Source of the DNA: Aequorivita sp.
Lineage (GTDB): Bacteria > Bacteroidota > Bacteroidia > Flavobacteriales > Flavobacteriaceae
NCBI GenBank assembly: GCA_024637015.1
Contig: JAGXGE010000011.1
Span: 62,001-126,000, forward strand
DNA length: 64,000 nt
Reading direction: 5' to 3'
Positions 3,364-40,593 of this stretch are shown piece by piece (the first letter of the stretch is position 1; each line of letters starts with the position of its first letter). The notes under the pieces are model-generated. The model ran no database searches. It was given only the letters and a program-made list of their open reading frames with translations, and was not told the DNA's origin. Made by a program: the position numbers and the translations under genes.

Positions 3364-3407
3364 CAAAAGTACTTTTTAAGTATTTTTTTTAAAATGATTT
3401 TCGTCAT
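3364..3407 (-). promoter_or_regulatory. Crp/Fnr-type operator and -7 box of the usp gene (site A)
   Basis: On the minus strand the dyad ATGACGAAAATCAT (3407-3394) is followed after 22 bp by the -7 box TACTTTTG (3371-3364). The usp ATG is 22 bp past the A of the box. Seen directly in the sequence; activator binding is inferred from eleven identical layouts in the window. Confidence 0.7.
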
Positions 3408-3497
3408 AAATCCGTTCACTAAAATCATTGATATTTACTATCGGAATTTTTTTAACTGCGATTTAAAATACAATTAAAAGATAAAAATGTCCTATAT

Positions 3498-3541
3498 ATG
3501 ACAAAAATCATATTCTATCTATCATTCTAGGGCTAATTTTG
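3498..3541 (+). promoter_or_regulatory. Crp/Fnr-type operator and -7 box upstream of the nosZ operon (site B)
   Basis: The dyad ATGACAAAAATCAT (3498-3511) is followed after 22 bp by TAATTTTG (3534-3541). It faces away from site A, so usp and the cytochrome-fasciclin-nosZ unit are divergently transcribed from paired copies of the same promoter type. The box overlaps a possible TTG start at 3539, which argues for the downstream ATG at 3566 as the real start of the cytochrome. Confidence 0.72.
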
Positions 3542-3565
3542 TCTTATAAATTAATTCAAACAACT

Positions 3566-4072
3566 ATGAATAAGATAATTAAATCAATAGCCGCAATTGC
3601 AATTTTAACCCTAATAAGCTGCGGCGGAAAAGAAGAGAAAAAGAAAGACACCATTCAAATTGGGCAAAAATCAACTACTACCGAAACTCCAAAGGAGGAG
3701 TCAGCAGCTGTTACTACGAAAGCTTCGGAAACAATCGATTTAACCAATAAAGGTATTGGCCCAATTAAAAGTTTAGAATTGCCAGCTATTGTTGACCAAG
3801 CAATGGCAGCGAAAGGAATGGAGATCTATAAAGCAAAATGTATGGCCTGCCATAAACCCGCCAAAAAGTTTATTGGTCCCGCTCCAACTGGAGTTTTGGA
3901 AAGACGGACCCCTGAATGGATTATGAATATGATTCTAAATCCTGAGGAAATGGTACAAAAAGATCCTCTTGCAAAAGCACTATTGATAGAGTTCAATGGA
4001 TCCCCGATGGCGAACCAAAATTTAACAGAGGAAGAAGCTAGACAAGTATTGGAATATTTTAGAACACTTTAA
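3566..4072 (+). CDS. lipoprotein c-type cytochrome (nos-associated)
   Basis: The 168-residue protein has a Sec signal with lipobox LISC (Cys19), a low-complexity linker to about residue 60, and one haem c motif CMACH at residues 92-96. A later SPMANQNL segment probably supplies the Met axial ligand. It is a membrane-tethered periplasmic cytochrome and, being first in the unit that contains nosZ, is a good candidate electron donor to the N2O reductase; such cytochromes accompany clade II nos clusters. The ATG at 3566 is preferred over the in-frame TTG at 3539 because the latter lies in the promoter -7 box. Confidence 0.88.
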   Translation: MNKIIKSIAAIAILTLISCGGKEEKKKDTIQIGQKSTTTETPKEESAAVTTKASETIDLTNKGIGPIKSLELPAIVDQAMAAKGMEIYKAKCMACHKPAKKFIGPAPTGVLERRTPEWIMNMILNPEEMVQKDPLAKALLIEFNGSPMANQNLTEEEARQVLEYFRTL

Positions 4073-4095
4073 TAGAACCTTAAATAATCAAGTCT

Positions 4096-4122
4096 CCTTG
4101 CAGGATTTCTTGTCCTGCAAGG
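4096..4122 (+). other. perfect 10-bp stem-loop between cytochrome c and fasciclin genes
   Basis: CCTTGCAGGA (4096-4105) and TCCTGCAAGG (4113-4122) form a perfect stem with a 7-nt loop. No T tract follows, so it is not a textbook intrinsic terminator. It may stabilise the 3' end of the cytochrome message, pause polymerase or mark processing. Confidence 0.55.
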
Positions 4123-4138
4123 GTTAAAACCAAAACCA

Positions 4139-4717
4139 ATGAAAACAATAACCAAACTGCTATTTGTTTCAGCTACATTACTCGTGTTTTCAGCCTGTAA
4201 AAATGAAACAAAAACCGACGTGGACGGATCTGCCATTGAAAGTTCCGCAACAACCAGTGCCTCAACAGAGAAACAAGGTCAGGCCTTTATTAAAGATGAC
4301 GTATCAAAACCTAATGTGCTTCAAATTGCAATTGGTTCTCCGGACCACACTACACTTGTTGCTGCAGTTCAAGCCGCAGGATTGGAAAATTCTCTGGTAA
4401 ATGCAGGCCCATTGATGGTTTTTGCCCCAACCAATGCAGCGTTTGATGCTTTGCCTGCAGGAACTGTGGAAGATTTATTAAAACCTGAAAATAAAGAGCA
4501 ACTGGCTTACATCTTGAAAAATCATGTTACACCGGGTAACTATTCAAAGGATTTTCTGAAAAAATTCAAAAAACTAGGTCAGGCAGGTGGTGAAAGCGTC
4601 CTCATTGAAGTGAAAGGCGAAGATGTTTATGTTGGAGGAGCCAAAATCCTTGCAAGTATTCCAGCCGGTAATGGAATTGTACACGTGGTGGATAAAGTGA
4701 TACTACCAGCAAACTAA
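4139..4717 (+). CDS. fasciclin-domain lipoprotein
   Basis: The 192-residue product has a lipoprotein signal (lipobox FSAC, Cys20), a Ser/Thr-rich linker and one FAS1 domain from about residue 58 to the end, with the hallmark motifs TTLVAAVQAAGL, FAPTNAAFDALP and the terminal NGIVHVVDKVILP. FAS1 domains usually mediate adhesion or protein-protein contact. Here it sits between a cytochrome lipoprotein and nosZ, 27 bp before nosZ, so a scaffolding role in a periplasmic N2O-reduction complex is a reasonable guess, not shown by sequence. Confidence 0.88.
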   Translation: MKTITKLLFVSATLLVFSACKNETKTDVDGSAIESSATTSASTEKQGQAFIKDDVSKPNVLQIAIGSPDHTTLVAAVQAAGLENSLVNAGPLMVFAPTNAAFDALPAGTVEDLLKPENKEQLAYILKNHVTPGNYSKDFLKKFKKLGQAGGESVLIEVKGEDVYVGGAKILASIPAGNGIVHVVDKVILPAN

Positions 4718-4744
4718 TCAATTAATTTTATAAATAATAGAACA

Positions 4745-6712
4745 ATGAAAAAAACAATTAATATTTTAGTTTCCCTGATTATGGTTACCGGTTTGGTGAG
4801 CTGTAACAATGGCGAAAACAAAAGAGAAAACAAGGGGCAGGGCGCCCTAGCCACCAATGCTGCTGAAAAAGTGTACGTTGCTCCAGGAGAGCACGATGAG
4901 TTTTATGCGTTTCTTTCCGGAGGTTTCAGTGGACAGCTCTCTGTTTACGGCTTGCCATCAGGACGTTTGTTTAAAGTAATTCCAGTTTTCTCTCAAGATG
5001 CTGAAAAAGCGTGGGGTTATAACGAAGAAACCAAACCTATGTTGGAAACTTCCTATGGCTTTGTGCCTTGGGGAGATGCGCATCATCCAGATATTTCACA
5101 AACAAATGGCGAACTTGATGGACGTTGGGTTTTCATAAATGAAAATAATACACCTCGTATTGCAAGGATAGATCTTACCACTTTTGAAACTGCTGAAATT
5201 ATTGAAGTCCCAAATAGTGCGGGTAATCACAGTTCCTCTTTCGTAACTGAAAATACAGAATATGTGGTTGCAGGAACTCGTTTCTCTGTGCCAATTCCCC
5301 AACGCGATATGCCTATTAATGAATATAAAGGAAACTTTAAAGGTTCGCTTTCCTTCATTAGTGTAGACCCTGAATCTGGCCGCATGGCTATCAAATTTCA
5401 ATTGATGATGCCTGGCTTTGACTATGATCTTTCTCACCCGGGCCGTGATAAATCCCACGGTTGGTTCTTCTTTACTACTTATAACACTGAAGAAGCAAAT
5501 TCATTATTGGAAGTAAATGCATCGCAAAATGATAAAGATTTCATTGCAGCAGTTAACTGGAAGAAAATCGAAGAATATGTGAACAATGGCGGTGGAACAA
5601 AAGTTCCTACCAAATATGCACACAACGTTTACAGCGATGAGACCCATACAGCCACCTCCACAATGATTAATGAAGTGCTTACCGTAAATCCATTGGATGT
5701 TCCGGGAGCTGTTTATTTCCTTCCAACCCCAAAATCTCCTCACGGTTGCGACGTGGATCCAACGGGTGAATACATTGTGGGTAACGGAAAACTTTCTGCC
5801 GATTTAACTGTGCACTCATTTACAAAAATGCTTGCCGCAATCGAAAACAAAAGATTTGATGGCGAAGCGTACGGTATTCCAATCTTGAAATTTGAAGATG
5901 TACTTGCCGGAACAGTAAAGCAAGCAGGCTTAGGCCCATTACACACTGAGTTTGATGATAAAGGCAATGGTTACACAACATTCTTTATTTCTTCTGAAGT
6001 TGTAAAATGGAAAGTCGGAACATGGGAAGTTTTAGATCGTCAACCTGTTTTTTACTCAGTGGGCCATGACATGATTCCTGGTGGAAATTCACGCAAGCCT
6101 TTCGGTAAATATCTTGTCGCATTAAACAAGATTACTAAAGACCGTTATTTGCCAACAGGGCCGGAAGTAACCCAATCTGCACAGTTATTTGACATTACTG
6201 GTGAGAAAATGGAACTGCTGTTGGATTTCCCAACTATTGGTGAACCACACTACGCAGCCGGTATTCCTGCAGATATTGTTGCCAAAAATTCAAGACAGAT
6301 ATTCAAACTTGCCGAAAACAAGCACCCTTATGCCACAATTGACGGTGCAGACGCTAGGGTAGAGCGCAAGGGCAACGAAGTTCATATTTATATGACAATG
6401 ATTCGCAGCCACTTTACTCCAGACAATATTGAAGGTATAAAAGTGGGCGACAAAGTATATTTCCACGTAACAAACCACGAGCAGGATTACGATGTACCGC
6501 ACGGTATCAGTATGATTGGCGCCAACACTTCCGAGTTGTTGATTATGCCCGGGCAAACCGAAACATTTGTTTGGTACCCAAAACAACCAGGTGTATGGCC
6601 ATTCTACTGTACAGACTTTTGCTCTGCATTGCACCAAGAAATGCAAGGTTATGTTCGTGTAAGTCCTGCAGGCTCCAGCACGGAACTTAAATGGTCATTG
6701 GGCGAAGATTAA
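4745..6712 (+). CDS. nosZ: nitrous oxide reductase, clade II (Sec-dependent lipoprotein)
   Basis: The 655-residue enzyme reduces N2O to N2 in the periplasm. It starts with a Sec lipoprotein signal (lipobox LVSC, Cys20) and has no twin-arginine motif, which marks the clade II (atypical) type. The N-terminal seven-bladed propeller holds CuZ histidines (for example in AHHPDISQTNGELDGRW, SPHGCDVDPTG and GPLHTEFD). The C-terminal cupredoxin domain carries CuA ligands: the His of DVPHGISM and C622-x3-C626-x3-H630-x2-M633 in FYCTDFCSALHQEM. Length is normal and all ligand motifs look intact. A strong terminator follows at 6769. Confidence 0.97.
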   Translation: MKKTINILVSLIMVTGLVSCNNGENKRENKGQGALATNAAEKVYVAPGEHDEFYAFLSGGFSGQLSVYGLPSGRLFKVIPVFSQDAEKAWGYNEETKPMLETSYGFVPWGDAHHPDISQTNGELDGRWVFINENNTPRIARIDLTTFETAEIIEVPNSAGNHSSSFVTENTEYVVAGTRFSVPIPQRDMPINEYKGNFKGSLSFISVDPESGRMAIKFQLMMPGFDYDLSHPGRDKSHGWFFFTTYNTEEANSLLEVNASQNDKDFIAAVNWKKIEEYVNNGGGTKVPTKYAHNVYSDETHTATSTMINEVLTVNPLDVPGAVYFLPTPKSPHGCDVDPTGEYIVGNGKLSADLTVHSFTKMLAAIENKRFDGEAYGIPILKFEDVLAGTVKQAGLGPLHTEFDDKGNGYTTFFISSEVVKWKVGTWEVLDRQPVFYSVGHDMIPGGNSRKPFGKYLVALNKITKDRYLPTGPEVTQSAQLFDITGEKMELLLDFPTIGEPHYAAGIPADIVAKNSRQIFKLAENKHPYATIDGADARVERKGNEVHIYMTMIRSHFTPDNIEGIKVGDKVYFHVTNHEQDYDVPHGISMIGANTSELLIMPGQTETFVWYPKQPGVWPFYCTDFCSALHQEMQGYVRVSPAGSSTELKWSLGED

Positions 6713-8365: not shown

Positions 8366-9619
8366 TTGAAAAAAACATTTCACATATATTTCTTAGTTGC
8401 CTTGTTTTTTGGCACCTTCACAGGTTTTGCCAAAACCATTACTGTGTGCAGTTCCTGTTCCATAAAAACCATTCAGGAAGGAATTGCCCAAGCTTCGGAA
8501 GGAGATACGGTATTGGTGAAGAAAGGTATTTATAAAGAAATAAACATTACCATAGACAAAAGCCTAGTTCTGTTAGGTGAAAATCTTCCAACAATCGATG
8601 GAGAAGACAAAGGCGAAATAATAAAAATTGTAGCAGACAATGTTACCGTGGACGGTTTCAAAATAATAAACGTCGGTACCAGTTATACTGAAGATTATGC
8701 TGCCGTTCGTGTAATTAAGAAAGATGGTTTTTTAATCCAGAATTTACAATTGGAAAAACTTTTCTTCGGAATTTACCTCGAAAAATCAAATAACGGAAAA
8801 GTACTGAACAACAAAATAAAAGGTGATGCCGTAAACGAATATAATTCCGGAAATGGCATCCAGCTTTGGTATTGCAAAAATATTGAGGTACAAGGAAACA
8901 CAGTAGAAAACGTCCGTGACGGAATTTACTTGGAATTTTCAGACAATATATTAATAAGCCATAACTACAGTAAAAATAATCTGCGTTACGGCTTGCATTT
9001 TATGTTTAGCGACCACGATGTTTATGAGTATAATATCTTTGAAAATAATGGGGCAGGAGTGGCTGTGATGTTTTCGAAATTTGTGGATATGAATCATAAT
9101 ATTTTTAAGGAAAATTGGGGCACGGCAGCATTCGGACTATTGCTAAAAGAAATAAACGATTCCAAAATCACTAATAACGTTTTTCAGGAAAACACTGTAG
9201 GCATCAACGTTGAAGGCAGTAACCGCATTGAGTATTCACACAATGATTTTATTAGTAACGGCTGGGCCATAAAGGTTCGTGGCGCCTGTTATACTAACTC
9301 TTATGTGCAGAACAATTTTATGTACAACTCTTTCGATATTTCATATAACAGCGGTATGAACGACAATGTTTTCAACAGAAATTATTGGAGCAATTATGCG
9401 GGTTACGACCTGGATAAAAACGGGGTTGGCGATGTGCCATATAGACCCGTAAAACTGTTTTCGTATATCGTAAACCGAACGCCGGAGGCCATTATTATGT
9501 TGCGTAGCCTGTTTATAGATATAATTGATTTTTCAGAAAAAGTTTCCCCAGTTTTCACACCAGACAACTTGGTGGATGAACATCCCAAAATGAGAAAAAT
9601 AAACCATGATAGAAGTTAA
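8366..9619 (+). CDS. nosD: NosD periplasmic copper-processing beta-helix protein
   Basis: The 417-residue protein has a signal peptide and then a right-handed beta-helix built of CASH/NosD repeats (residues about 35-350; NNKIKGDAV, GNTVENVRDGIYL, SHNYSKNNLRYGLHFM, NNVFQENTVGINVEG). It works with the NosFY transporter in loading the copper-sulfur CuZ site of NosZ. The start codon is TTG (8366), preceded by a possible -7 box TAATTTTG at 8350. The 3' end overlaps nosF by 14 bp. Confidence 0.95.
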   Translation: MKKTFHIYFLVALFFGTFTGFAKTITVCSSCSIKTIQEGIAQASEGDTVLVKKGIYKEINITIDKSLVLLGENLPTIDGEDKGEIIKIVADNVTVDGFKIINVGTSYTEDYAAVRVIKKDGFLIQNLQLEKLFFGIYLEKSNNGKVLNNKIKGDAVNEYNSGNGIQLWYCKNIEVQGNTVENVRDGIYLEFSDNILISHNYSKNNLRYGLHFMFSDHDVYEYNIFENNGAGVAVMFSKFVDMNHNIFKENWGTAAFGLLLKEINDSKITNNVFQENTVGINVEGSNRIEYSHNDFISNGWAIKVRGACYTNSYVQNNFMYNSFDISYNSGMNDNVFNRNYWSNYAGYDLDKNGVGDVPYRPVKLFSYIVNRTPEAIIMLRSLFIDIIDFSEKVSPVFTPDNLVDEHPKMRKINHDRS

Positions 9620-10316
9620 GGAACTATACAAAAAGTTTGGAAAAAACGAAGTGCTCAAAGGCATAGACCTTTCCATTGAGAGGGGTGGTATTTTTTCAGT
9701 ATTGGGCCCAAACGGCTCTGGAAAGACCACGCTTATAAAATGTATTTTAGGAATGGTTTTGCAGGACTCTGGGAACATTTCTATCGATGGCAAACCGCTG
9801 AAAAACAATTTCAAATACCGAAATGAAATAGATTATTTGCCGCAGATAGCAAATTTCCCCGGAAACTTGAAAGTAAGTGAACTTATTGCGATGATAAAAG
9901 ATTTACGCGATTCGAAAGCTACTAAGGATGAAGAATTGATTGAGCTTTTTAAATTACAACCTTTTCTCAATAAAAAATTAGCAAACCTTTCCGGTGGAAC
10001 AAAACAAAAAGTGAACTTGGTGCTTGCCTTTATGTTTGACAGTCCGTTGTTAATTTTGGATGAACCTACCAACGGTCTGGATCCAATTTCACATTTGCGT
10101 TTAAAAAACCTTATCAATTCTGAAAAGGAAAAAGGGAAAACCATCCTTATCACCTCACATATTTTGAGTTTTGTTGAAGAAATTTCTGATGAAATTGTAT
10201 TTCTTTTAGAAGGGAAGATTTATTTCAAGGGAAGCATTTCAGAACTGAAAAAGAAGACGGACCAACCCGATTTTGAACACGCCATAGCCTCTATTTTATC
10301 CGCTAGTTATGCTTAA
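9606..10316 (+). CDS. nosF: NosF ABC-transporter ATPase
   Basis: The 236-residue ATPase has Walker A GPNGSGKTT (residues 34-42), signature LSGGTKQKV, Walker B LLILDEP and the H-loop ITSH. NosF powers the NosFY permease, which supplies sulfur for CuZ biogenesis of N2O reductase. It overlaps nosD upstream and nosY downstream (8 bp), so the three are translationally coupled. Confidence 0.95.
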   Translation: MIEVKELYKKFGKNEVLKGIDLSIERGGIFSVLGPNGSGKTTLIKCILGMVLQDSGNISIDGKPLKNNFKYRNEIDYLPQIANFPGNLKVSELIAMIKDLRDSKATKDEELIELFKLQPFLNKKLANLSGGTKQKVNLVLAFMFDSPLLILDEPTNGLDPISHLRLKNLINSEKEKGKTILITSHILSFVEEISDEIVFLLEGKIYFKGSISELKKKTDQPDFEHAIASILSASYA

Positions 10317-11091
10317 AATATTAAAATACAGTTTTTACGATTTAATGCGAAGCCGTTGGAGCTACGTGTATTTTCTATTCTATTTGCTGCTTGGTGTTGT
10401 ACTTTTATTTTTAAACAACGACCTATCCAAAGCGGTAATCACGTTGATGAATGTCATCATTATTTTGGTGCCGCTCATCGGGACTATTTTTGGGGTGATG
10501 TACTATTATAATTCCCGTGAGTTTACGGAACTTCTTTTGGCGCAGCCCGTAAAAAGGAGTTCCATCTTTTTGGGGCAATATTTCGGCGTTGCCACCTCGC
10601 TTTCAATGAGTTTGGTTATTGGTCTTGGAATGCCGTTTATTTTCTACGGAATTTTCAATAGTAGCGCGATTTGGGATTTTTCCCTTTTACTAATAACAGG
10701 AGCATTTTTAACTTTTATATTTACTGCCCTGGCTTTCGTAATTGCACTTTCCAACGAAAATAGAATAAAAGGATTTGGCTATGCCATTTTACTATGGCTG
10801 TTTATGGCAGTGATTTATGACGGTATCTTTTTGATGTCATTGCTTTATTTCGAAGAGTATCCTTTGGATAAATTTTCGCTACTGGCTACGATGCTGAACC
10901 CCATTGATTTGTCGCGTGTAATGATTCTTTTAAAACTTGATATTTCAGCACTTTTGGGTTATACTGGGGCTGTTTTTCAAAAATTCTTTGGAACCAGTTT
11001 TGGATTGTTGCTTTCTTCGGCAATGTTGATTGTTTGGGTTCTCGTACCTACTTTCTTTATTTGGCGCATTGCTAAGCAGAAGGATTTTTAA
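10309..11091 (+). CDS. nosY: NosY ABC-transporter permease
   Basis: The 260-residue integral membrane protein has six predicted transmembrane segments, begins MLKILKYSFYDLMRSRWSYVYF as in NosY/ABC-2 permeases, and contains the conserved YYNSREFTELLLAQPVKRSSIFLGQ cytoplasmic loop. With NosF it forms the transporter needed to mature NosZ. It is the last nos gene of the block; no clear terminator follows. Confidence 0.94.
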   Translation: MLKILKYSFYDLMRSRWSYVYFLFYLLLGVVLLFLNNDLSKAVITLMNVIIILVPLIGTIFGVMYYYNSREFTELLLAQPVKRSSIFLGQYFGVATSLSMSLVIGLGMPFIFYGIFNSSAIWDFSLLLITGAFLTFIFTALAFVIALSNENRIKGFGYAILLWLFMAVIYDGIFLMSLLYFEEYPLDKFSLLATMLNPIDLSRVMILLKLDISALLGYTGAVFQKFFGTSFGLLLSSAMLIVWVLVPTFFIWRIAKQKDF

Positions 11092-11145: not shown

Positions 11146-11189
11146 ATGACCTGCGTCATATTAAAAAAAAAAAAGATTTTCCACCTTTA
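11146..11189 (+). promoter_or_regulatory. Crp/Fnr-type operator and -7 box of the 600-residue unknown gene (site C)
   Basis: The most symmetrical dyad of the set, ATGACCTGCGTCAT (11146-11159), is followed after 22 bp by CACCTTTA (11182-11189), with the ATG 35 bp past the A of the box. It lies inside the N-terminal extension of the longest possible frame, showing that the real start is downstream at 11218. Confidence 0.68.
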
Positions 11190-15145: not shown

Positions 15146-15189
15146 TAAAAGTAACGTTTGTGAAAAAAATCGGAAATGACAAAAATCAT
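15146..15189 (-). promoter_or_regulatory. Crp/Fnr-type operator and -7 box of the acyl-CoA synthetase (site D)
   Basis: On the minus strand ATGATTTTTGTCAT (15189-15176) is followed after 22 bp by TACTTTTA (15153-15146). On the plus strand its 14 bp are identical to site B of the nosZ operon. It forms a divergent pair with site E, centres 81 bp apart. Confidence 0.7.
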
Positions 15190-15256: not shown

Positions 15257-15300
15257 TTGATATTTGTCATATTTTGTAGTGTTTTGTTGGAGTATTTTTA
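15257..15300 (+). promoter_or_regulatory. Crp/Fnr-type operator and -7 box of the nor-nad operon (site E)
   Basis: TTGATATTTGTCAT (15257-15270) is followed after 22 bp by TATTTTTA (15293-15300); the norC ATG is 29 bp past the A of the box. Confidence 0.7.
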
Positions 15301-19576: not shown

Positions 19577-20178
19577 AAGATTTGATAGAAAAATCAGTCA
19601 ATAAAGCAATGTCTTATAATCAGTATAACTTGCTTTTTAAACAATTGGTAGAAGAGGGAAGTAGCACTGGAGAGCAAACCTTAGAAAAGATTAATTACAC
19701 AAAATTGAATTTTAGTCGCACCAAAAGACTGGACAAAACTGCTGAAATCTCGGAAGAGCTTATTGATGTTTTCGAGAATTTTTCGGAAAAGCAAACTTGG
19801 CTTGTTATTAGTGAGCCTTGGTGTGGTGACGCTGCGCAGACGCTTCCTTTTTTAAACAAGATTGCGCAATTTTCTGACAGTATAGAATTAAAAATTTTGC
19901 TTCGTGATGAAAACCCAGAACTGATAGATCAATTTTTGACCAATGGTTCGCGTTCTATTCCAATAGTGATTATACTTGACGAAAACTTAAATGTTATTCA
20001 AACATTTGGCCCTCGCTCTAAATCAGCATCGCAACTAGTAAACGATTACAAAGCACAACACGGAAAAATTGATGCTACTTTAAAGGAAATGCTTCAAATT
20101 TGGTACAACAAGGATAAAGGTATATCTATTGTAAACGATATTTCTGAGTTGTTTTTTTCAGAAAAAGAATCTTTCTGA
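19573..20178 (+). CDS. thioredoxin-like fold protein
   Basis: The 201-residue cytosolic protein has a thioredoxin-like domain from about residue 55 with WLVISEPWCGDAAQTLPFLNK, where the usual CxxC is reduced to a single Cys (WCGDA), and the cis-Pro region SRSIPIVIILDE. It matches the Thioredoxin_9-type family of Bacteroidota and Firmicutes. It ends the norCB-nadAB operon with a 4-bp overlap to nadB. The single Cys argues against a classical disulfide reductase. Confidence 0.85.
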   Translation: MKDLIEKSVNKAMSYNQYNLLFKQLVEEGSSTGEQTLEKINYTKLNFSRTKRLDKTAEISEELIDVFENFSEKQTWLVISEPWCGDAAQTLPFLNKIAQFSDSIELKILLRDENPELIDQFLTNGSRSIPIVIILDENLNVIQTFGPRSKSASQLVNDYKAQHGKIDATLKEMLQIWYNKDKGISIVNDISELFFSEKESF

Positions 20179-20218
20179 TAATTATCATTTCTGTAAGAAT
20201 ATAATTTTCACAACTTTG
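20175..20218 (+). promoter_or_regulatory. Crp/Fnr-type operator and -7 box of the CoA transferase (site F)
   Basis: CTGATAATTATCAT (20175-20188) starts inside the last codons of the preceding gene and is followed after 22 bp by CAACTTTG (20211-20218). The ATG of the CoA transferase is 23 bp past the A of the box. Confidence 0.65.
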
Positions 20219-22984: not shown

Positions 22985-23028
22985 ATGATTTAGGTCATAG
23001 TTTGTTCCTTTATTTCTGCTGAAATTTG
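22985..23028 (+). promoter_or_regulatory. Crp/Fnr-type operator and -7 box of ric (site G)
   Basis: ATGATTTAGGTCAT (22985-22998) is followed after 22 bp by GAAATTTG (23021-23028); the ric ATG is 37 bp past the A of the box. Confidence 0.68.
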
Positions 23029-25419: not shown

Positions 25420-25463
25420 GTGATATTTATCATTTTATAAAGGAGTTTCATTGCTAAACTTTG
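25420..25463 (+). promoter_or_regulatory. Crp/Fnr-type operator and -7 box of ccoI (site H)
   Basis: GTGATATTTATCAT (25420-25433) is followed after 22 bp by AAACTTTG (25456-25463). The distance rule seen at the other sites (22-37 bp from the A of the box to the start) fits an ATG at 25493 and excludes any start before about 25475. Confidence 0.66.
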
Positions 25464-25492
25464 CAGTGGGTATAATGAGCAAAATTAGATTG

Positions 25493-27904
25493 ATGGTAAA
25501 CTGTTTCCATTGTGGTGATTCGTGTTTGGATTTTGAATTAAAGCACGACGAAAAATCCTTTTGTTGTCACGGTTGTAAAACTGTTTACGATATTCTGCAC
25601 GATAACGATTTAGGTTATTATTACGATCTTGAAAAAACACCGGGTATTTCCCCAAAAGAAGTTATTGGAAAATACGACTATCTCGAAAACGAGATAATCG
25701 TTGAAAAACTACTTGAGTTTAATGATGGTAACACCCAGATTGTTTCGTTTCTGATTCCTTCCATCCACTGCAGTAGTTGCATCTGGATTCTTGAAAACCT
25801 GAACAAGCTAAATCCGTCCGTTAAATCTTCACAAGTAAATTTTCCCGAGAAAACAGTGCGCATTAATTTTTCTGCGGAAGAAAATTCACTGAAAAATTTA
25901 GTCATTCTTTTAAGTCGGATTGGTTACGAACCCTACATTTCACTAGATGATTTTGATAAAAAAGAAAAATACATCAACCGAAGCCTTATTTATAAATTGG
26001 GCATCGCAGGTTTTGCCTTTGGGAATGTAATGTTTCTTTCTTTTCCCGAATATTTTGAACATTCTGAATTCTGGTTAGATCAGTTTAAACCTATGTTCCG
26101 ATGGTTGATGTTTGCGTTTTCACTTCCGGTTGTTTTGTATTCTGGAAGTGGTTATTTCACTTCAGCATACAAAGGTCTCCGTTCAAGAATTTTGAATATT
26201 GATGTACCAATAGCACTGGGGATTTCCGTACTTTTTATTCGAAGTACGCTGGATATCGTTATGAATTGGGGCACGGGCTTTTTCGACAGTCTTACTGGTC
26301 TTGTTTTCTTTTTGTTGCTCGGGAAATTTTTTCAACAGAAAACATACAATTATCTTTCATTTGAACGCGATTACAAATCCTATTTCCCTATCGCCGTTAC
26401 ACGACTTTTTAAAAATTCCGAAGGAAAAATAGTTGAGGAACAAGCTGAAGTTTATAAGGTGAAAAAAGGCGATCGATTGCTTATTCGTAATAATGAAATA
26501 ATACCTGTGGATGCTATTTTAATTAAAGGAAGCGCTCTTATAGATTATAGTTTTGTTACTGGAGAGGCAGAACCAATTTCCAAACAAAGCGGTGACAAAC
26601 TCTTTGCCGGTGGCAAACAACAAGTAGGAATTATAGAAGTTGAAGTGCTAAAACCTGTTGCGCAAAGTTACTTGACGCAACTCTGGAGCAATGACGTTTT
26701 CAGTAAAGATAAAACCGGTATTTTTGATTCATTGACCGATGGTATAAGCAAACGGTTTACCATTGCCATTCTTTCCGTCGCGTTTATTTCTACCATTTTT
26801 TGGTTGATAGCAGATCCTTCAAAAGCATTCAATGTTTTCACATCGGTTTTGATTGTTGCCTGCCCTTGTGCAATAGCACTCGCAGCACCATTTACTTTGG
26901 GTAATTTGCTGCGCATCTTCGGAAGAGAGAAGTTATATTTAAAGGAGGCTTCGGTAATTGAGCAAATGGCGAAGCTGGACACTGTGGTTTTTGATAAAAC
27001 AGGTACGCTCACCACAAATCAAAAAAACTTAATTACCTATGAAGGTGTGGCATTTTCTGCTGAAGAAAAACAATTGCTAACAAGCACGCTTCGCGCATCC
27101 AGCCATCCTTTAAGCCGCTCGCTTTACAGTATTTTGGATAAAAACGATATCCAAACTTTGGATGATTTTGAAGAAGAAATAGGGAAGGGGATTTCTGCTA
27201 CTTCCAATGATAATTCCATTAAAGTTGGTTCTTATGAATTTGTGGGTTATTATAACGAAAATACTTCGGAATTAAAAGACAGAACCACTGTTCATATAAG
27301 TGCGAATCAGGTTTATAAAGGTTGTTATATTTTCAACAGTGAATACAGAAAAGGTATTTCTGAGCTTTTTGAACAATTGGTGAATGATAGAGAAGTAATC
27401 GTGCTTTCCGGCGACAATGAAGGCGAGCGAGAACGTTTAGAAACGCTTCTTCCAACAGGCACAAATCTATACTTCAATCAAAAACCAGACGACAAACTAA
27501 ATTTCATAAAAAAATTACAGCAAAACGGAAAGCAAGTATTGATGATAGGCGATGGCCTTAATGATGCCGGAGCTTTAAAACAGAGCAATGTTGGGTTTGT
27601 AATTTCAGAAAACACAAATGTTTTTTCGCCCGCCTGCGATGGTATTTTGGATGCTTCACAGTTTAAAAAAATTGCAGATTATCTAAATCTTTCAAAAAGT
27701 GGTGTGAAAATAATTAAATGGGCATTTTTGTTTTCTTTGGTTTATAATTTAGCGGGACTTTCGTTTGCTGTAACGGGACATTTACGTCCGGTAGTAGCAG
27801 CTATTTTAATGCCTTTAAGCTCTATAAGTATAGTGGTTTTTACAACGGTTGCCACACAGTATATTGGCAAGAAATTAAGAATGAAAATAAATAATAAAAA
27901 TTGA
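25493..27904 (+). CDS. ccoI: cbb3-oxidase copper-loading P1B-type ATPase
   Basis: The 803-residue heavy-metal ATPase has an N-terminal zinc-ribbon-like CFHCGDSC...FCCHGCKTVY, a metal-binding CSSC (HCSSCIWIL), the transmembrane CPC motif (residues 457-459, ACPCAIALAAP), the phosphorylation site DKTGTLT (D501) and GDGLND. CcoI/FixI exports Cu(I) for CuB assembly in cbb3 oxidase. The start at 25493 gives MVNCFHCG, the family's normal beginning, and a suitable leader after the promoter; ATG 25475 is the alternative. Confidence 0.93.
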   Translation: MVNCFHCGDSCLDFELKHDEKSFCCHGCKTVYDILHDNDLGYYYDLEKTPGISPKEVIGKYDYLENEIIVEKLLEFNDGNTQIVSFLIPSIHCSSCIWILENLNKLNPSVKSSQVNFPEKTVRINFSAEENSLKNLVILLSRIGYEPYISLDDFDKKEKYINRSLIYKLGIAGFAFGNVMFLSFPEYFEHSEFWLDQFKPMFRWLMFAFSLPVVLYSGSGYFTSAYKGLRSRILNIDVPIALGISVLFIRSTLDIVMNWGTGFFDSLTGLVFFLLLGKFFQQKTYNYLSFERDYKSYFPIAVTRLFKNSEGKIVEEQAEVYKVKKGDRLLIRNNEIIPVDAILIKGSALIDYSFVTGEAEPISKQSGDKLFAGGKQQVGIIEVEVLKPVAQSYLTQLWSNDVFSKDKTGIFDSLTDGISKRFTIAILSVAFISTIFWLIADPSKAFNVFTSVLIVACPCAIALAAPFTLGNLLRIFGREKLYLKEASVIEQMAKLDTVVFDKTGTLTTNQKNLITYEGVAFSAEEKQLLTSTLRASSHPLSRSLYSILDKNDIQTLDDFEEEIGKGISATSNDNSIKVGSYEFVGYYNENTSELKDRTTVHISANQVYKGCYIFNSEYRKGISELFEQLVNDREVIVLSGDNEGERERLETLLPTGTNLYFNQKPDDKLNFIKKLQQNGKQVLMIGDGLNDAGALKQSNVGFVISENTNVFSPACDGILDASQFKKIADYLNLSKSGVKIIKWAFLFSLVYNLAGLSFAVTGHLRPVVAAILMPLSSISIVVFTTVATQYIGKKLRMKINNKN

Positions 27905-27944
27905 TAAATGTCATATTTTAAAGAGACTCACAATAATATTTTTG
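27901..27944 (+). promoter_or_regulatory. Crp/Fnr-type operator and -7 box of the ccoS-ccoNOQP unit (site I)
   Basis: TTGATAAATGTCAT (27901-27914) begins at the ccoI stop codon and is followed after 22 bp by TATTTTTG (27937-27944), with the ccoS ATG 24 bp past the A of the box. Confidence 0.7.
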
Positions 27945-31596: not shown

Positions 31597-33018
31597 TTGG
31601 ATACTCCAGAAAATGAACGTTTTAGAGATAGCATTGGTACTATAAACGAAGAAGGTAAAAGGGCTTGGGTTTATCCCAAAAAACCTTCGGGTAAACTATA
31701 TGAATACAGAAAGTATGTAAGCTATTTTTTGCTTGTTTTTCTGTTTGCAGCTCCGTTTGTGAAGATTAATGGAAACCAATTTTTACTTTTCAATGTTTTG
31801 GAGCGCCGTTTCAATATTTTCGCTTTTCCATTTTGGCCTCAGGACTTTTATCTTTTCGTAATTATGATGGTTATTGGGGTAGTATTCATTTTATTGTTTA
31901 CTGCCGCTTTTGGTAGAATTTTTTGTGGATGGATATGCCCACAGACTATTTTTATGGAAATGGTTTTCAGAAGAATTGAATATTGGATTGACGGTGATAG
32001 AGGAGCGCAAATCCGTTTGGATAAGCAAGCCTGGAATGCCGAGAAGATTAGAAAACGCGCCCTTAAATGGTTTATTTTCTTTATTATCTCTTTTTTGATT
32101 GCCAACGTTTTTTTGGCATATGTAATAGGAAGTGACCGCTTAATGCAATACGTTTTTGAAGGTCCCTTAGACCATATTAGCACATTGATCTCTTTGCTAA
32201 TATTTACGAGTGTTTTCTATTTTGTATTTGCTTGGTTTAGAGAACAGGTTTGCATTATAGCTTGCCCATACGGAAGGTTGCAAGGAGTCTTGCTAGACAA
32301 TAAATCTATAATCGTGGCATACGATCATAAACGCGGAGAAAAAGAAGAGGGACGCGCCAAGTTCAAGAAGAATGAAGATAGGGAAGCTTCCGGAAAAGGT
32401 GATTGTATAGATTGTTTTCAATGTGTACACGTGTGTCCAACGGGAATAGATATCCGTAACGGAACTCAGCTAGAGTGTGTTAACTGTACCGCTTGTATAG
32501 ATGCGTGCGATAGTATTATGGAAGCAGTAAACCTGCCAAAGGGCTTAATTCGCTACGCAAGTGAGGAAAATATAGAGAAAAAGGCGAAGTTTAAGTTTAC
32601 ACCACGTTTAAAAGGTTACACGGCCGTTTTGCTAATTTTGATCGGGGTGCTCAGCGGGCTACTCTTTTTACGTAGCGATGTAGAAGCAAACATTCTGCGC
32701 CTTCCAGGACAATTGTACGAACATAAGGATGGCAATATAATCAGCAATGTGTTCACCTATAAATTATTGAATAAAACCACCAAGAATATTGACAATATTA
32801 ACTTTAAGCTAAAATCCCACAAAGGAACTATTCACTCAGTAAAACAAGGCGAATTGATTGTGCCAGCACAAGGACTGGCAGAGGGAACATTATTTATTGA
32901 AATAAACAATGGGGCGCTTACAGGTGATAAGAATAGAGTGGTAATTGAGGTTTATAGCAATGAAGAATTGATTGAAACAACGAGTGTGACATTCTTGGGT
33001 CCAAGGAGTTATAAATAA
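31597..33018 (+). CDS. ccoG: CcoG polyferredoxin-type membrane protein
   Basis: The 473-residue protein starts with TTG and has several membrane helices, a RIFCGWICPQTIFMEMVFR motif, and two 4Fe-4S motifs, CIDCFQCVHVCPTG and CVNCTACIDACDS, followed by an Ig-like C-terminal periplasmic domain. CcoG reduces Cu(II) to Cu(I) for cbb3 assembly. It lies 33 bp after ccoP. Confidence 0.94.
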   Translation: MDTPENERFRDSIGTINEEGKRAWVYPKKPSGKLYEYRKYVSYFLLVFLFAAPFVKINGNQFLLFNVLERRFNIFAFPFWPQDFYLFVIMMVIGVVFILLFTAAFGRIFCGWICPQTIFMEMVFRRIEYWIDGDRGAQIRLDKQAWNAEKIRKRALKWFIFFIISFLIANVFLAYVIGSDRLMQYVFEGPLDHISTLISLLIFTSVFYFVFAWFREQVCIIACPYGRLQGVLLDNKSIIVAYDHKRGEKEEGRAKFKKNEDREASGKGDCIDCFQCVHVCPTGIDIRNGTQLECVNCTACIDACDSIMEAVNLPKGLIRYASEENIEKKAKFKFTPRLKGYTAVLLILIGVLSGLLFLRSDVEANILRLPGQLYEHKDGNIISNVFTYKLLNKTTKNIDNINFKLKSHKGTIHSVKQGELIVPAQGLAEGTLFIEINNGALTGDKNRVVIEVYSNEELIETTSVTFLGPRSYK

Positions 33019-35513: not shown

Positions 35514-36290
35514 TTAGTTATCAATATCTTTCGCACAGCGGAAGCCTAAGTTCTGCGAAGAATAGCGCGCTTTCATACTTCCGCGAAAAGCATAGCGCAT
35601 AAATGCGGCATAATTCATTAAATCTGAAGCACCTATTGCAGCACTTCCACAGAAAAGGTTCGAATCTTTATCAACATCTTTTCGGGATTCTCCTGAAATT
35701 AAAACGGAGTTAAAATCCAGTGTCCATTCCCAAACCAAACCGTGCAAATCATAGATTCCCCAATAATTCTTAAAAGTTTCTCCAACAGGGTTACTGAAGG
35801 TTTTTGGAGTTTCGTACCAGTTAAGAATATATTGATTGTAGGTTTCTATTTTTCGTGCATCCTGTACTTTTTCATTGGCCATTGCCGCAAATTCCCATTC
35901 ATCCATTGTAGGTAGCCGTTTGCCTTGACATTCGCAATATTTTTTTGCAGCGAACCAAGAAACATTTGTAACTGGTGAATTTGGCAATCCTTTGAAAGAA
36001 TAATCACCTGTCCAGTTTGTCAAATAACTTTTATCTGCAAACAAACTCTTCACATTGGTTCTGTTCCATTGTGGATTTTCTTTCACAAATTTTAGATAAT
36101 CAGCATTTGTAACTGGATAAACATCCATCAAATATGGTGAGACAGTTACTAATTTATCTGCTGTTCCATATAAAGGAAGATAAACACCGCCCTTTACAGT
36201 GGCCATATCAATTTTTTGTGCTGATATAGTGCTAAAAAAGGATAAAAAAACCAAACAAAGGACGGTACTGTGTAATTTCAATTTGAACAA
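35514..36290 (-). CDS. nirV: NirV-like formylglycine-generating-enzyme-fold protein
   Basis: The 258-residue protein has a signal peptide and an FGE/SUMF1 domain: DVYPVTNADYLKFV, PNSPVTNVSWFAAKKYCECQGKRLPTMDEWEFAA, YDLHGLVWEWTLDF and the C-terminal LGFRCAKD. Genes of this family lie beside nirK in other denitrifiers and are called nirV. It is probably a periplasmic NirK-associated factor; the sulfatase-activating activity is not expected. It starts 4 bp after nirK. Confidence 0.85.
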   Translation of the reverse strand: MFKLKLHSTVLCLVFLSFFSTISAQKIDMATVKGGVYLPLYGTADKLVTVSPYLMDVYPVTNADYLKFVKENPQWNRTNVKSLFADKSYLTNWTGDYSFKGLPNSPVTNVSWFAAKKYCECQGKRLPTMDEWEFAAMANEKVQDARKIETYNQYILNWYETPKTFSNPVGETFKNYWGIYDLHGLVWEWTLDFNSVLISGESRKDVDKDSNLFCGSAAIGASDLMNYAAFMRYAFRGSMKARYSSQNLGFRCAKDIDN

Positions 36291-36294
36291 TTTT

Positions 36295-37755
36295 TTATTT
36301 ATTTCTAACAGCTTTTACCATTTCTGGAGTTACTTCTTTTTTTGAATTTCCCCAACTGTTGTAAACATAAGTAAGCACGTTTGATACTTCCTCATCACTC
36401 AACGCTTGGGCTGTCATAACACTGTTATACTTTTTACCGTTAACTGTAATTTCTCCAGTCTTACCGTGCAGAACAATATCAATTGCTCTATCTACATCAG
36501 CATTTAGATAATCTGATTTTGCCAATGGAGGGAAGGCACCTTCAATACCTGCTCCCGTTGCTTGGTGACAAGCCAGACAGGTACTTGCATAAATGTCTTT
36601 ACCAAACTTCATTTTTTCTTCTAATCCAACTGCTTTAATTTCTTCAGACTTACCATTGTCCTTTGGCATAGATTGAATGGCACCTCCTTCTGGAAGGTAG
36701 ATTCCATCTCGAATTTCTCCTGAGTAGATTGTTTTGTTCTTTTCGCCTTCTACTTTTAACATAGCAAGCGCTCCTTTATTAAAAGCTCTAAAAATGGAGT
36801 GATCAACTAATATAAAAGTACCTGGAACATCTACTCTAAACTCTACAATTGCGGCTCCTCCAGCAGGTATTAGAGTGGTTTGAACGTTTTCATTAATTAA
36901 ATCGCCACCCTCCACATGCACTTTGTCAAAAATCTCCCCAATAACGTGAAAAGATGAAACAAGGTTTGGACCGCCATTACCTACAAAGAGACGAACCGTT
37001 TCCCCAACTTTTGCGGTTATAGCATTATCACCAGTCATAGCGCCAACACTTCCGTTAAATACTACATAGTCTGGTTTTTCATCAATAGCCTTTTGCATAT
37101 CAAACGGCTGAACTCCACGATCTCCATAGTTGCCTTCGGTATAAAAATCACCTTGCATAATGTAATATTCTTTGTCAACTGGTGATAAGCCCCCTTCTGG
37201 TTCAACCAAAATAAGACCATACATTCCGTTTGCAATGTGCATACCTACAGGTGCTGTAGCACAATGGTAAACATAAAGCCCCGGATTCAACACTTTAAAA
37301 GAGAATACTTTTTCGTGCCCAGGAGCAACGAAGGATGATTCCGCGCCACCGCCGGGACCATTCACCGCATGAAGATCAATGTTGTGCGGCAATTTATTAT
37401 CTGGATGATTTTTTAGGTGAAATTCTACTTCGTCGCCTACTCTTGTTCTTATGAAACTGCCTGGAACGGTACCACCAAAAGTCCAATAAACATATTTTAC
37501 ACCTCCAGTCATTTCGCCTTCCTTTTCTAGAATCTCCAAATCAACAATTAGTTTTTTGGCCATTCGTTTTCCAATAGGTGTTGGCACATTTGGCGGTGAT
37601 GTTAATTCCGCAATCATTTCCTGGTTTACAGGAATATCTACCGTGTCATTGTACTTTTTGTAGGACTGATCATTTATACAACTTGAAAGAAATGCAAGGG
37701 TAACAAGACCGAGAAACATTTTTGTAACTAAGGTTTTTTTTAGATTTAATTTCAT
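36295..37755 (-). CDS. nirK: copper nitrite reductase with C-terminal cytochrome c domain
   Basis: The 486-residue lipoprotein (lipobox LSSC, Cys26) reduces nitrite to NO. Two cupredoxin domains carry the copper ligands: [17 protein letters not shown] (type 1 and type 2 His), [18 protein letters not shown] (Cys, His, Met of type 1 copper) and the final [12 protein letters not shown] (type 2 His). After residue about 370 a fused class I cytochrome c has CLACH at 393-397. The fusion lets the enzyme take electrons through its own haem. Confidence 0.95.
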
Positions 37756-37779: not shown

Positions 37780-39060
37780 TTAATTGATTGTTACTGTATT
37801 TTGTTTTTGCCAAGAGAAAAGAACGGGATCTATTGTCACTATTATCCACGCCCAATTATTTGAGTTGCCATCAAAATTGTTTTTCACGGTTTGAGTTCCC
37901 TTTGAAGCAAAAAATTGTGAATAACCTGCCTGAATGCCTGTAAATTCTGTCATTTTGAACGAAGATACTAAATCTAGTTCAAAACCTAAATCTTTTGAAG
38001 TTTCGTTTACAATTTCCGCTGCTGCGAAAAATTGATGAAATGCAACTTGAACATTTGCTTTTTTGTTGAAAGAATATTTAATATTCACATTAGCATCAAT
38101 TAGGCCAACATTATTGAGATGGTTACCAACGTAGAAATAATCCATAAACCCATTGAACTTATGGTTAGTGCCATAAAGTGGGTTGAAAGCTTCATTTTTT
38201 CCGTTTGAAGGAAGTCCATAATCGTTTCCACTTTGCAGCTCCCCTCCCAATCCTACAATTAAATTCTCGGTTGCTGCATATTTAGCTTCTAGTGAAAGTA
38301 AATAGGCCCGCAGCTCATTATCTGAAACATCTTTCCCTAGTTGATAATACAAATTTGAAATAACGCTAAACTTGTTTACATTTCTCTTTAAATGAAGTCC
38401 AAGAGTTTGGGAGTATCGTGTTTCATTTTTAGATTCATCAATTTCATCTATGTATTGCAATCCATTATTCAAAAACAGAAAACTGGCGTTTAATTTCTCC
38501 CAATCTTTGTGAAGCCATACATACTGTAGGTTCTTATAGGTATTTGTTGTAAGTACATTTCCGGTTAAAGCTTCTTTATCTTGATTGTATGCAGCGCCAA
38601 AATGCAATCTCATAAAACTGGGTTCATATTTTAAAATTACAGCATCATGGCTTCTTCCTTGTTGTGCCCAATCTACATTTCCAAGAAAACGCTGATCGTC
38701 ATAAACAAGTTCTTGTCGACCAATTTTAAGATATAGTTGTGGAGTAAAAAGCAGCTCACCCCATGCTTGATGCAATGAAAATCCATTTTCATCAACTGTG
38801 TTTAATTGCGGCACATCGCCCCAAACCCGTATGTCTTGAGGACTTAGATAAAAGTTAAGTTTTTCGGTTTTATAACCAAAATTGAGACGAGTTCGCTGCG
38901 ATACAAAAGCTGCCGGATCTACATTATCAGGAAAAAGTGTTTTATATCCGTGTCTGTATTCAAATCTTGGCCTAAGTTGGGCATCTACGGTAAACTGAGC
39001 GTAGCTGTTTGTTAAGCTGAACAACAGGATTAGTGGGAGCGTGGTTTTTAGAAAATTCAT
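37780..39060 (-). CDS. alginate-export-type outer membrane porin
   Basis: The 426-residue protein has a signal peptide and a beta-barrel of the Alginate_exp family (LRPRFEYRHGYKT, RTRLNFGYKTEKLNFYLSPQDIRVWG, LKIGRQELVYDDQRFLGNVDWAQQGRSHDAV). It is first in the operon with nirK, nirV and sco, 24 bp before nirK, so it may admit nitrite or another anion to the periplasm. That role is inferred from position. Confidence 0.88.
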   Translation of the reverse strand: MNFLKTTLPLILLFSLTNSYAQFTVDAQLRPRFEYRHGYKTLFPDNVDPAAFVSQRTRLNFGYKTEKLNFYLSPQDIRVWGDVPQLNTVDENGFSLHQAWGELLFTPQLYLKIGRQELVYDDQRFLGNVDWAQQGRSHDAVILKYEPSFMRLHFGAAYNQDKEALTGNVLTTNTYKNLQYVWLHKDWEKLNASFLFLNNGLQYIDEIDESKNETRYSQTLGLHLKRNVNKFSVISNLYYQLGKDVSDNELRAYLLSLEAKYAATENLIVGLGGELQSGNDYGLPSNGKNEAFNPLYGTNHKFNGFMDYFYVGNHLNNVGLIDANVNIKYSFNKKANVQVAFHQFFAAAEIVNETSKDLGFELDLVSSFKMTEFTGIQAGYSQFFASKGTQTVKNNFDGNSNNWAWIIVTIDPVLFSWQKQNTVTIN

Positions 39061-39079
39061 TATCCCTATATTTAAGACA

Positions 39080-39123
39080 CAAATATCCTATTTAAGATTT
39101 TTTGTAAATATGACCTTCGTCAA
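39080..39123 (-). promoter_or_regulatory. Crp/Fnr-type operator and -7 box of the nir operon (site J)
   Basis: On the minus strand TTGACGAAGGTCAT (39123-39110) is followed after 22 bp by GATATTTG (39087-39080); the porin ATG is 26 bp past the A of the box. Confidence 0.68.
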
Positions 39124-39165
39124 CTTTGGGTGGTATTTTTGGAAAATATGTTTTAGTGGTTAAAT

Positions 39166-40530
39166 TTAAACCGTCATGGAGAAAAGCTGCATCTCTGGCT
39201 TGCTGCGCTGCAAAAGCAGATCAAAAGCCATACAGACGTTACGAACATAAGGACGTCCCTTTTCAGTAATTTGAAGATTTTGTGAATCTATTTTCAGCAA
39301 TCCATCAGTTTCCATTTCTTTTAATTTTTCCAAAACTTCGGGTAACTCATCAAATTGAAGATTTTTTTCCTCCCAGGAAGTATCCAGCTTACACATCATA
39401 TTCAAGATATGCTTGCGAATTAATAAATCCTCCTCATTCAAAATATGCCCTCTATAAACAGGAATAATATTTTGACCTACTAATTCTTGGTATTCCTCTA
39501 CATTTTTTACGTTTTGCCCAAAACTATACCAACTGTCACCAATTGCTGAAACTCCCAGGCCCAGCATCAATTGGGTTTTGCTGTCGGTATAACCCATAAA
39601 ATTGCGGTGTAGGGTTCTATTTTCCACAGCTTTGTAAAGGCTATCATTTTTAAGAGCGAAATGGTCCATGCCAATTTCAATATAACCAGCTTCTTCTAGC
39701 ATTTTTTTGCCGGTTTCATACATATCGCGCTTTTCAGCTGCACTTGGTAAATCCGCTTCCTTAAAACCGCGCTGACCGTTGCCTTTTATCCACGGCACAT
39801 GAGCGTAGCTGTAAAAGGCGATGCGGTCTGGCATTAATTCCTTGGTTTTTTCAATGGTGTAAATAATGTGCTCTTTTTTCTGAAAGGGAAGACCAAAAAT
39901 TATATCGTGTCCCACCGAAGTGTAGCCAATTTCACGAGCTTTTTCAGTTACTCGCTTCACATTTATAAAAGGTTGAAGTCTGTGTATTGCGAACTGCACG
40001 GTTGGATTGTAATCCTGAACGCCATAACTAACCCTTGTAAAGCCACAATCAAAAAGTGTTTGTAAATGCGCTTCGGAAGTATTGTTGGGATGTCCTTCAA
40101 AACTGAATGATGGATTTTTGGCAATAGTTGCATCGCGGAAAATTCCTTTAAGAAGGAGTTTTAAATTTTCGGCTGAAAAAAAAGTGGGTGTGCCACCACC
40201 GAGGTGTAATTCCTTGATAATCGGTCTTTCAGAAAAAAGTTCCAAATAAAGGCGCCATTCCTTTAAAACGGATTCCAAATAAGGGGTTTCAACACCGTGA
40301 TTTTTGGTTATACGTTTGTTACAACCGCAAAATGTACAAAGACTTTCACAAAACGGAAGGTGGATGTAAAGGCTTATGCCTTCATCAGAATTGCTTTCGG
40401 CAAAACTTTTGACTACCCCTTTTTTCCATTCGCTTAAAGAAAAATTGTTATTGTTCCAATAAGGGACTGTTGGATAACTTGTGTATCGTGGTCCGGCAAC
40501 GTTATATTTTGAAACTAAAGTGCTTTGCAT
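39166..40530 (-). CDS. hemN: oxygen-independent coproporphyrinogen III oxidase
   Basis: The 454-residue radical SAM enzyme makes protoporphyrinogen IX without O2. The cluster motif is in YIHLPFCESLCTFCGCNKRI (CxxxCxxC plus the extra Cys), with LHLGGGTPTFF and the HemN C-terminal domain. It supplies haem for the c- and b-type cytochromes encoded around it and has its own copy of the anaerobic promoter. Confidence 0.96.
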   Translation of the reverse strand: MQSTLVSKYNVAGPRYTSYPTVPYWNNNNFSLSEWKKGVVKSFAESNSDEGISLYIHLPFCESLCTFCGCNKRITKNHGVETPYLESVLKEWRLYLELFSERPIIKELHLGGGTPTFFSAENLKLLLKGIFRDATIAKNPSFSFEGHPNNTSEAHLQTLFDCGFTRVSYGVQDYNPTVQFAIHRLQPFINVKRVTEKAREIGYTSVGHDIIFGLPFQKKEHIIYTIEKTKELMPDRIAFYSYAHVPWIKGNGQRGFKEADLPSAAEKRDMYETGKKMLEEAGYIEIGMDHFALKNDSLYKAVENRTLHRNFMGYTDSKTQLMLGLGVSAIGDSWYSFGQNVKNVEEYQELVGQNIIPVYRGHILNEEDLLIRKHILNMMCKLDTSWEEKNLQFDELPEVLEKLKEMETDGLLKIDSQNLQITEKGRPYVRNVCMAFDLLLQRSKPEMQLFSMTV

Positions 40531-40549
40531 AGCTTTTAATTTGTGACAT

Positions 40550-40593
40550 CAAAAGTACTTTTTGAGCATATAATATAAAATGATATATGTCAG
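40550..40593 (-). promoter_or_regulatory. Crp/Fnr-type operator and -7 box of hemN (site K)
   Basis: On the minus strand CTGACATATATCAT (40593-40580) is followed after 22 bp by TACTTTTG (40557-40550), with the ATG 26 bp past the A of the box. Confidence 0.7.

Follow-up and report, generated by a model that had tools for sequence, protein, structure and literature searches.

A rigid 44-bp composite promoter of a predicted low-oxygen regulon in Aequorivita and its candidate receiver-Crp regulator

Which regulator reads the repeated promoter element in the denitrification and respiration gene region of Aequorivita sp., and how far beyond this genome is the element used? The question is raised by a stretch of 64,000 nucleotides (bases 62001-126000 of contig C23, JAGXGE010000011.1; genome 3.22 Mb), here called the window, with positions counted from its first base. 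The element is a composite of 44 base pairs (bp) in all, made up of the dyad NTGAYNNNNRTCAT, a spacer of 22 bp and a -7 box, NANNTTTR. The answer that we consider quite probable, reading binding, phosphorylation and signal from sequence, is that the composites would be activator-dependent sigma-A class II promoters served by a low-oxygen circuit of a receiver-Crp fusion protein and a haem-PAS-type kinase, with an FNR-like protein as the alternative in relatives.

We found 13 oriented composites in the window, where 0.04 were expected, and none of 100 dinucleotide shuffles reached 13. In the whole genome the strict pattern matched 31 times, 18 of these outside the window, versus no match for the pattern read backwards; a loose pattern gave 33 matches versus four. 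An earlier note on this DNA had named equal frequency in shuffled sequence as its own refutation; the counts in shuffles and in the control pattern do not show this. That note had listed 11 such promoters. On re-examination all 11 dyads lay at its coordinates, ended in RTCAT in gene orientation and were followed exactly 22 bp further on by NANNTTTR; the list was correct and omitted two composites (at 1721 on the plus strand, and the plus side of the dyad at 3394). The start codon, which it had put 22-37 bp from the box, lies in that range for nine of the 11, the actual span being 19-38 bp from the box start.

The distance between dyad and box had one dominant value. Among 18 oriented TGAYNNNNRTCAT dyads of the window, 13 had the box at 22 bp, one at 21 bp and none at 20, 23 or 24 bp; counted by dyad, the box was present at 12 of the window's 13, the exception being the dyad at 10444. 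In stretches of the same genome beyond the window the box stood at 22 bp in 18 of 31 cases, and in two sets of relatives' loci in 58 of 95 and 25 of 52, with zero to two cases at 20, 21, 23 or 24 bp. Minor secondary peaks of NANNTTTR were also seen 54 bp after the dyad in loci around fusion genes (n=6) and 8 bp after it in loci around FNR-like genes (n=8). In strict sites TGA, TCA, the box A and TTT are set by the search pattern and the remaining positions are informative: W, T and T follow TCAT in 31, 22 and 23 of the 31 sites, the first box base is T in 23, and the base preceding TGA, left free, is A in 13. The last dyad position, T14, was found in 31 of the 33 loose genome matches; the two poor fits without it, C15:161610 and C17:37135, were kept in the counts, and the latter, before nuoA, is the only match of that gene. 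An ATG follows the box by 11-32 nt in 24 of the 30 strict genome sites with an open reading frame (ORF). At six of the 31 matches with T14 the ATG is 55-145 nt distant, and one, C23:42257, has no ATG-started ORF of 60 amino acids within 260 nt.

The flavobacterial sigma-A -7 box has been mapped at -12 to -5, with the consensus TAnnTTTG (PMC9723704). Placed there, the box A of the composite falls at -11 and the TT at -33/-32, and the dyad, spanning -48 to -35, is centred at -41.5. The class II Crp/Fnr position of about -41.5 proposed before agrees with this published box position. The composites contain a two-fold dyad of Crp/Fnr type, and sequence geometry together with the published box puts its centre near -41.5, as in class II promoters. 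This geometry is best read as class II activation by a Crp/Fnr dimer, and we infer activation rather than repression. The 44-bp unit would then be an activator-dependent sigma-A promoter: a dimer of Crp/Fnr type would sit on the dyad at -41.5, beside or over the usual place of the -33 element, and from this fixed distance would bring RNA polymerase to the -7 box. A single dyad serves two oppositely directed promoters at 3394 in the window and at C17:40101 elsewhere.

Three proteins of the genome exceed the HTH_Crp_2 cut-off. We favour the one encoded at C23:47905-48954, a fusion of 349 amino acids in which a receiver (Pfam Response_reg, 3.7e-29) is joined to a cNMP_binding domain and an HTH_Crp domain. 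That the regulator lies outside the window had been predicted correctly, yet its gene is on the same contig, a mere 13 kb upstream, and it is most likely this fusion, not an ordinary Crp/Fnr protein. The phospho-acceptor residues D9, D10, D52 and K104, expected of a response regulator, are invariant in 15 of 15 aligned fusions, and none of the 15 has an N-terminal cysteine cluster of FNR type. A LuxR-type helix-turn-helix, as in FixJ, is not present in the fusion. Input would more likely come through the complete receiver than through the cNMP domain. In 32 of 34 relatives' loci a composite lies at most 122 bp past the fusion stop codon on the same strand.

Directly upstream of the fusion gene, C23:46667-47893 encodes a PAS histidine kinase of 408 amino acids. 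Composites flank this pair, one for the gene that diverges from the kinase gene, the other for a stress gene after the fusion. The divergent gene, L038:6150-6554 on the minus strand, encodes a protein of 134 amino acids without a Pfam or NCBIfam match, homologues of which follow composites at six sites in relatives. A PDB search with kinase residues 1-129 gave 14 sequences at E <=1e-5, 12 of them named DosP, haem PAS sensor or FixL; the other two were one named yddU, which we take to be DosP, and one other kinase. In the five DosP or haem-PAS alignments shown, a histidine of the kinase aligns with the haem-PAS histidine of DosP, presumably the haem ligand. Against the FixL model the kinase scored 97 bits (cut-off 850). 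By eye, the relatives' kinases L101 and L103-L106 keep the histidine at the DosP haem-PAS place. Because the PAS resembles the haem sensors DosP and FixL, low oxygen, or possibly nitric oxide (NO), is the probable signal. The activator in this genome would be the fusion, phosphorylated by the neighbouring PAS kinase, and the circuit would operate as FixL-FixJ-FixK does in rhizobia, but with FixJ and FixK as a single protein.

A second class of candidate regulators was found in relatives. These FNR-like proteins are stand-alone, 225 amino acids long, and have six invariant cysteines, candidate ligands of an iron-sulfur cluster, in all 13 that were fetched; their alignment with the Fnr model starts at residue 3 and scores 90 bits versus a cut-off of 228. 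In 12 of 13 loci a composite adjoins the start of this gene and points away from it. The two classes are about 29-39% identical over the compared part, and both have the recognition-helix core ATESxIR, or one close to it, with few exceptions. The FNR-like protein is absent from the Aequorivita genome at E 1e-30, leaving the fusion only, and tblastn found no remnant of its gene in the window (best E 0.41). In many relatives these promoters would be read by the FNR-like protein, with or without the fusion beside it. The base after TGAY was A in 29 of 36 sites listed for genomes with the FNR-like class only (G059, G044, G072) versus 21 of 44 listed for genomes with the fusion only (G027, G143), possibly a difference in site preference between the two regulators.

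We then compared sites and regulators across 149 genomes of the family, representing 148 genera, which contained 2194 strict composites versus 108 control matches. The composite is not confined to this genome; the scans show it spread through the family and into the class. With thresholds of our own, the fusion class was defined by an open frame of at least 347 amino acids and E <=1.2e-27 among the matches listed (down to about 3e-22), and the FNR-like class by E <=7.2e-41. The 28 genomes with neither class had a median of 0 sites, the 55 with the FNR-like class only a median of 10 (at least five sites in 48), the 31 with the fusion only a median of 15 (at least six sites in all 31), and the 35 with both a median of 27. 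A second, more distant fusion subfamily occurs in 14 genomes, and the 31 fusion-only genomes are independent of it. In a tree built from 35 fusion proteins (23 from fusion-only genomes and 12 from genomes with both classes; a gene tree, not a species tree), parsimony placed nine changes in the presence of the FNR-like class, five of them forced by well-supported branches, and this presence was no more clustered than shuffled labels (147 and 124 of 500 were as low). Since the fusion-only genomes each keep at least six sites and the FNR-like class changed repeatedly, the fusion alone apparently accompanies a maintained regulon many times over. We also favour, with less confidence than the circuit itself, a wider reading in which one rigid 44-bp code extends across Bacteroidota and is read by two exchangeable regulators with a common helix, lineages having repeatedly kept one, the other or both.

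The predicted targets in the window are as follows. The composite at 3364..3407 (minus strand) precedes a universal stress protein gene (2524-3348, minus). On the same dyad, 3394..3437 (plus) points the other way, upstream of a nos-type cluster with the ATG 128 nt past the box. The composite at 3498..3541 (plus) stands before genes for a cytochrome c (3566-4072), a fasciclin (4139-4717), nosZ (4745-6712), NosD (8366-9619) and, named by eye, nosF and nosY look-alikes (9606-10316 and 10309-11091); the boxless dyad core at 10444..10457 lies within the latter ORF. Behind 15257..15300 (plus) follow a cytochrome c (15323-15754), a COX1-family subunit that we read as NorB-like (15744-17069), nadA (17073-17999) and a flavoprotein of FAD-binding/fumarate-reductase type (17999-19576). 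The composite at 39080..39123 (minus) precedes an alginate-export-type porin (37780-39060), nirK (36295-37755) and an FGE-like gene (35514-36290), and that at 40550..40593 (minus) precedes hemN for oxygen-independent coproporphyrinogen III oxidase (39166-40530, minus). The cbb3 genes have two composites: 25420..25463 (plus) before a heavy-metal P-type ATPase gene, CcoI-type by place (25475-27904, plus), and 27901..27944 (plus) before ccoS/fixS (27962-28168), a fused ccoNO (28182-30383) and ccoG/fixG (31597-33018). Three more face an acyl/acetate-CoA ligase-like gene (15146..15189, minus; gene 13070-15124, minus), an acetyl-CoA hydrolase/transferase gene (20175..20218, plus; gene 20235-21503, plus) and an iron-sulfur repair gene of RIC/ScdA type (22985..23028, plus; gene 23059-23781, plus). 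The composite at 1721..1764 (plus) has its nearest ATG-started ORF (1877) 112 nt past the box, and its target is uncertain. At 11146..11189 (plus) a composite precedes a gene (11218-13020, plus) for a protein of 600 amino acids without a Pfam or NCBIfam match; a paralogue on contig C32 (L042:4404-6206, minus), also of 600 amino acids, likewise has no Pfam match and lies directly behind a composite, and we regard both as uncharacterised members of the predicted low-oxygen regulon.

Outside the window, strict sites precede genes for NiFe hydrogenase, 2-oxoacid:ferredoxin oxidoreductase, ferredoxin and a second NadA. Further ones stand before genes for a sulfide:quinone reductase-like protein, an MlaE permease, additional stress proteins and still other products. 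The gene behind C23:42257 (L038) looks by eye to be of hibernation-factor type and split by a frameshift in this assembly, either a sequencing error or a pseudogene, with a stress protein gene following it. In relatives' loci, which were picked around regulators, 92 of 98 strict composites were followed by an ATG-started ORF at no more than 80 nt; 83 of the 92 ORFs resemble a target of the Aequorivita genome; 12 of the 98 sites precede CcoI-like and 12 CcoS-like genes. The previously suggested control of denitrification fits in so far as nirK, nosZ and a NorB-like gene are among the predicted targets, and is too narrow for the scope, which takes in cbb3, hemN, hydrogenase, NadA, iron-sulfur repair and stress genes. 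Provided that whole clusters are transcribed from each composite, as we assume, the predicted target set is a general low-oxygen regulon, broader than denitrification. In F. psychrophilum, oxygen limitation strongly induces the cbb3 oxidase and also haem synthesis (PMC9723704); neither 'Crp' nor 'Fnr' occurs in the main text of that paper.

Several observations weigh against this picture. The element is not fully symmetric: T14 occurs in 31 of the 33 loose matches, its mirror A1 in 13 of 31 strict sites. The co-occurrence of regulators and sites is a correlation. Four of the 28 genomes with neither class have at least five sites (G048, 27 sites, 82% complete; G147, 14, 73%; G138, 8, 99%; G052, 5, 90%), and seven of the 55 FNR-like-only genomes have fewer than five. 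Many neither-class genomes are small or incomplete; those of at least 3.0 Mb and 94% completeness had 0 (G010, G039, G073, G087), 1 (G122), 2 (G086, G148) and 8 sites (G138). Before the kinase gene there is no composite with the 22-bp spacing: the dyad facing the kinase-fusion operon (C23:46618-46662, plus) has its box, TACTTTTG, at 24 instead of 22 bp, which perhaps means different or no control of the circuit's own genes. Finally, the neighbouring kinases L063, L066, L068, L069, L072 and L074 have a different PAS without such a histidine (L056 and L057 were partly seen), and the L053 kinase has a FixL-like stretch without it. The PAS of the former kinases is of the RKDGS/T.YPVEVHLQ type. As several fusion loci have kinases with another PAS or without the histidine, the haem sensor is not general; oxygen sensing through a haem PAS is likely for the kinase of this genome, and different sensor kinases seem to work with this one kind of fusion response regulator.

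Haem PAS domains can bind NO, and nirK, nosZ, NorB-like and iron-sulfur repair genes are among the targets, so that NO or nitrite could be the signal, as for DNR/NnrR regulators, in place of oxygen. We hold this to be unlikely because the cbb3 oxidase, hydrogenase, 2-oxoacid:ferredoxin oxidoreductase, hemN and NadA genes are targets too, for which oxygen shortage fits better.

A little less probable still is that the regulator is another Crp/Fnr protein of this genome, above all the Crp of 195 amino acids at C6:85044-85628 (beside a globin-like gene, by eye), and that the fusion serves other targets. The helix of this Crp, GLRVETVIRAIK, also keeps E and I-R. Three of 10 loci around genes of this type hold a composite; one such locus is in G148, which has neither class and two sites in all, one of them near the gene. 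G138, with 195-residue-type proteins, neither favoured class and eight sites, suggests that another Crp may read some sites. However, around fusion genes a composite was present in 28 of 29 loci of about equal length, the 195-residue Crp locus of Aequorivita itself has none, and site number does not follow the presence of this Crp (a median of 12.5 where it occurs versus 14 where it does not; 8, 4, 2 and 2 sites in the four genomes that have it alone). We judge it less likely than the fusion as main regulator and grant it a possible minor or overlapping role.

It is very improbable that an alternative sigma factor reads the dyad as an extended -35-type element with no Crp/Fnr protein involved. 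In favour of that idea, T14 and the WTT behind it lack symmetry and reach over the -33 place, but the dyad is two-fold and of Crp/Fnr type, single dyads serve opposite promoters, site counts follow Crp-type proteins, and the box resembles the published sigma-A consensus (PMC9723704). Chance or composition in AT-rich DNA, conceivable for a dyad and box that are both short and AT-rich, can be rejected as next to impossible, since shuffles, reversed-pattern controls and genome counts all contradict it (13 found versus 0.04 expected, 2194 versus 108) and the spacing peaks at one value.

The composite was also counted in the wider phylum, in a sample of 296 genomes with sums made by hand. Six genomes of the same order had 32 sites versus 3 control matches, and 37 of the same class outside the order had 183 versus 9. 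Among the 223 genomes beyond the class none had more than seven sites except G413, from another class, with 28 versus 0. Its candidate regulator is a stand-alone protein with CDEC near the start and the helix GTATETTIRILSDF; this isolated occurrence may reflect transfer or old inheritance. At E 1e-80, 72 of 149 class genomes carry the fusion. Carriers among the matches listed include Aquimarina, Salinimicrobium, Chitinophaga, Mucilaginibacter, Jiulongibacter, Sphingobacterium and Flavobacterium sp. 7A. In 14 fusion loci of these carriers the strict composite was present in seven and the reversed control in one.

The components belong to known kinds: class II Crp/Fnr promoters, FixLJ-FixK and receiver proteins. 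Rhizobial FixL-FixJ-FixK2 comprises a haem-PAS-type sensor kinase, a receiver and a Crp/Fnr-type effector, to which the kinase with its DosP- and FixL-like PAS and the two parts of the fusion would correspond; targets of the rhizobial cascade include ccoNOP/fixGHIS and hemN. FixK2 has also been linked to nos genes (PMC5582078). The predicted sites in Aequorivita likewise precede cbb3, hemN and nos genes, which they would control. In contrast to the rhizobial system, receiver and Crp part are in one protein with no LuxR-type FixJ output, and the dyad is NTGAYNNNNRTCAT, not TTGATnnnnATCAA, followed by a Bacteroidota -7 box. FNR of E. coli and relatives shares the class II position, an FNR-like dyad and low-oxygen targets, whereas the fusion lacks its N-terminal cysteine cluster. 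DNR/NnrR are Crp/Fnr-family regulators with nir/nor/nos targets (PMC1274295); here the predicted targets are much wider, the input would be two-component and the outer bases differ. HcpR2 of Bacteroides is a Crp/Fnr protein within Bacteroidota, and is predicted to regulate hcp via GTAACnnnnGTTAC, unlike the composite (PMC1274295). Flavobacteriales Crp/Fnr homologues have been placed near a MalR-like group (PMC8510549). Among titles and abstract openings of the open-access literature we found no earlier description of the composite promoter or of a regulatory role of the fusion at it. Three features seem to be new: a composite code of such rigidity in Bacteroidota, a fusion that would regulate it, and two regulator classes that replace each other at one set of promoters.

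Bacteroidota carry nosZ and can consume nitrous oxide, yet descriptions of their low-oxygen control seem to be few in the open-access literature. A 44-bp rule with almost no background makes the regulon readable from sequence alone in many genomes, and the code points to candidate regulators, here one that would shorten a textbook cascade. If our reading is true, the same regulon can be wired to an iron-sulfur sensor, to a haem-PAS kinase or to a kinase with another input with its promoters unchanged: a natural experiment in which the regulators were swapped and the promoters stayed.

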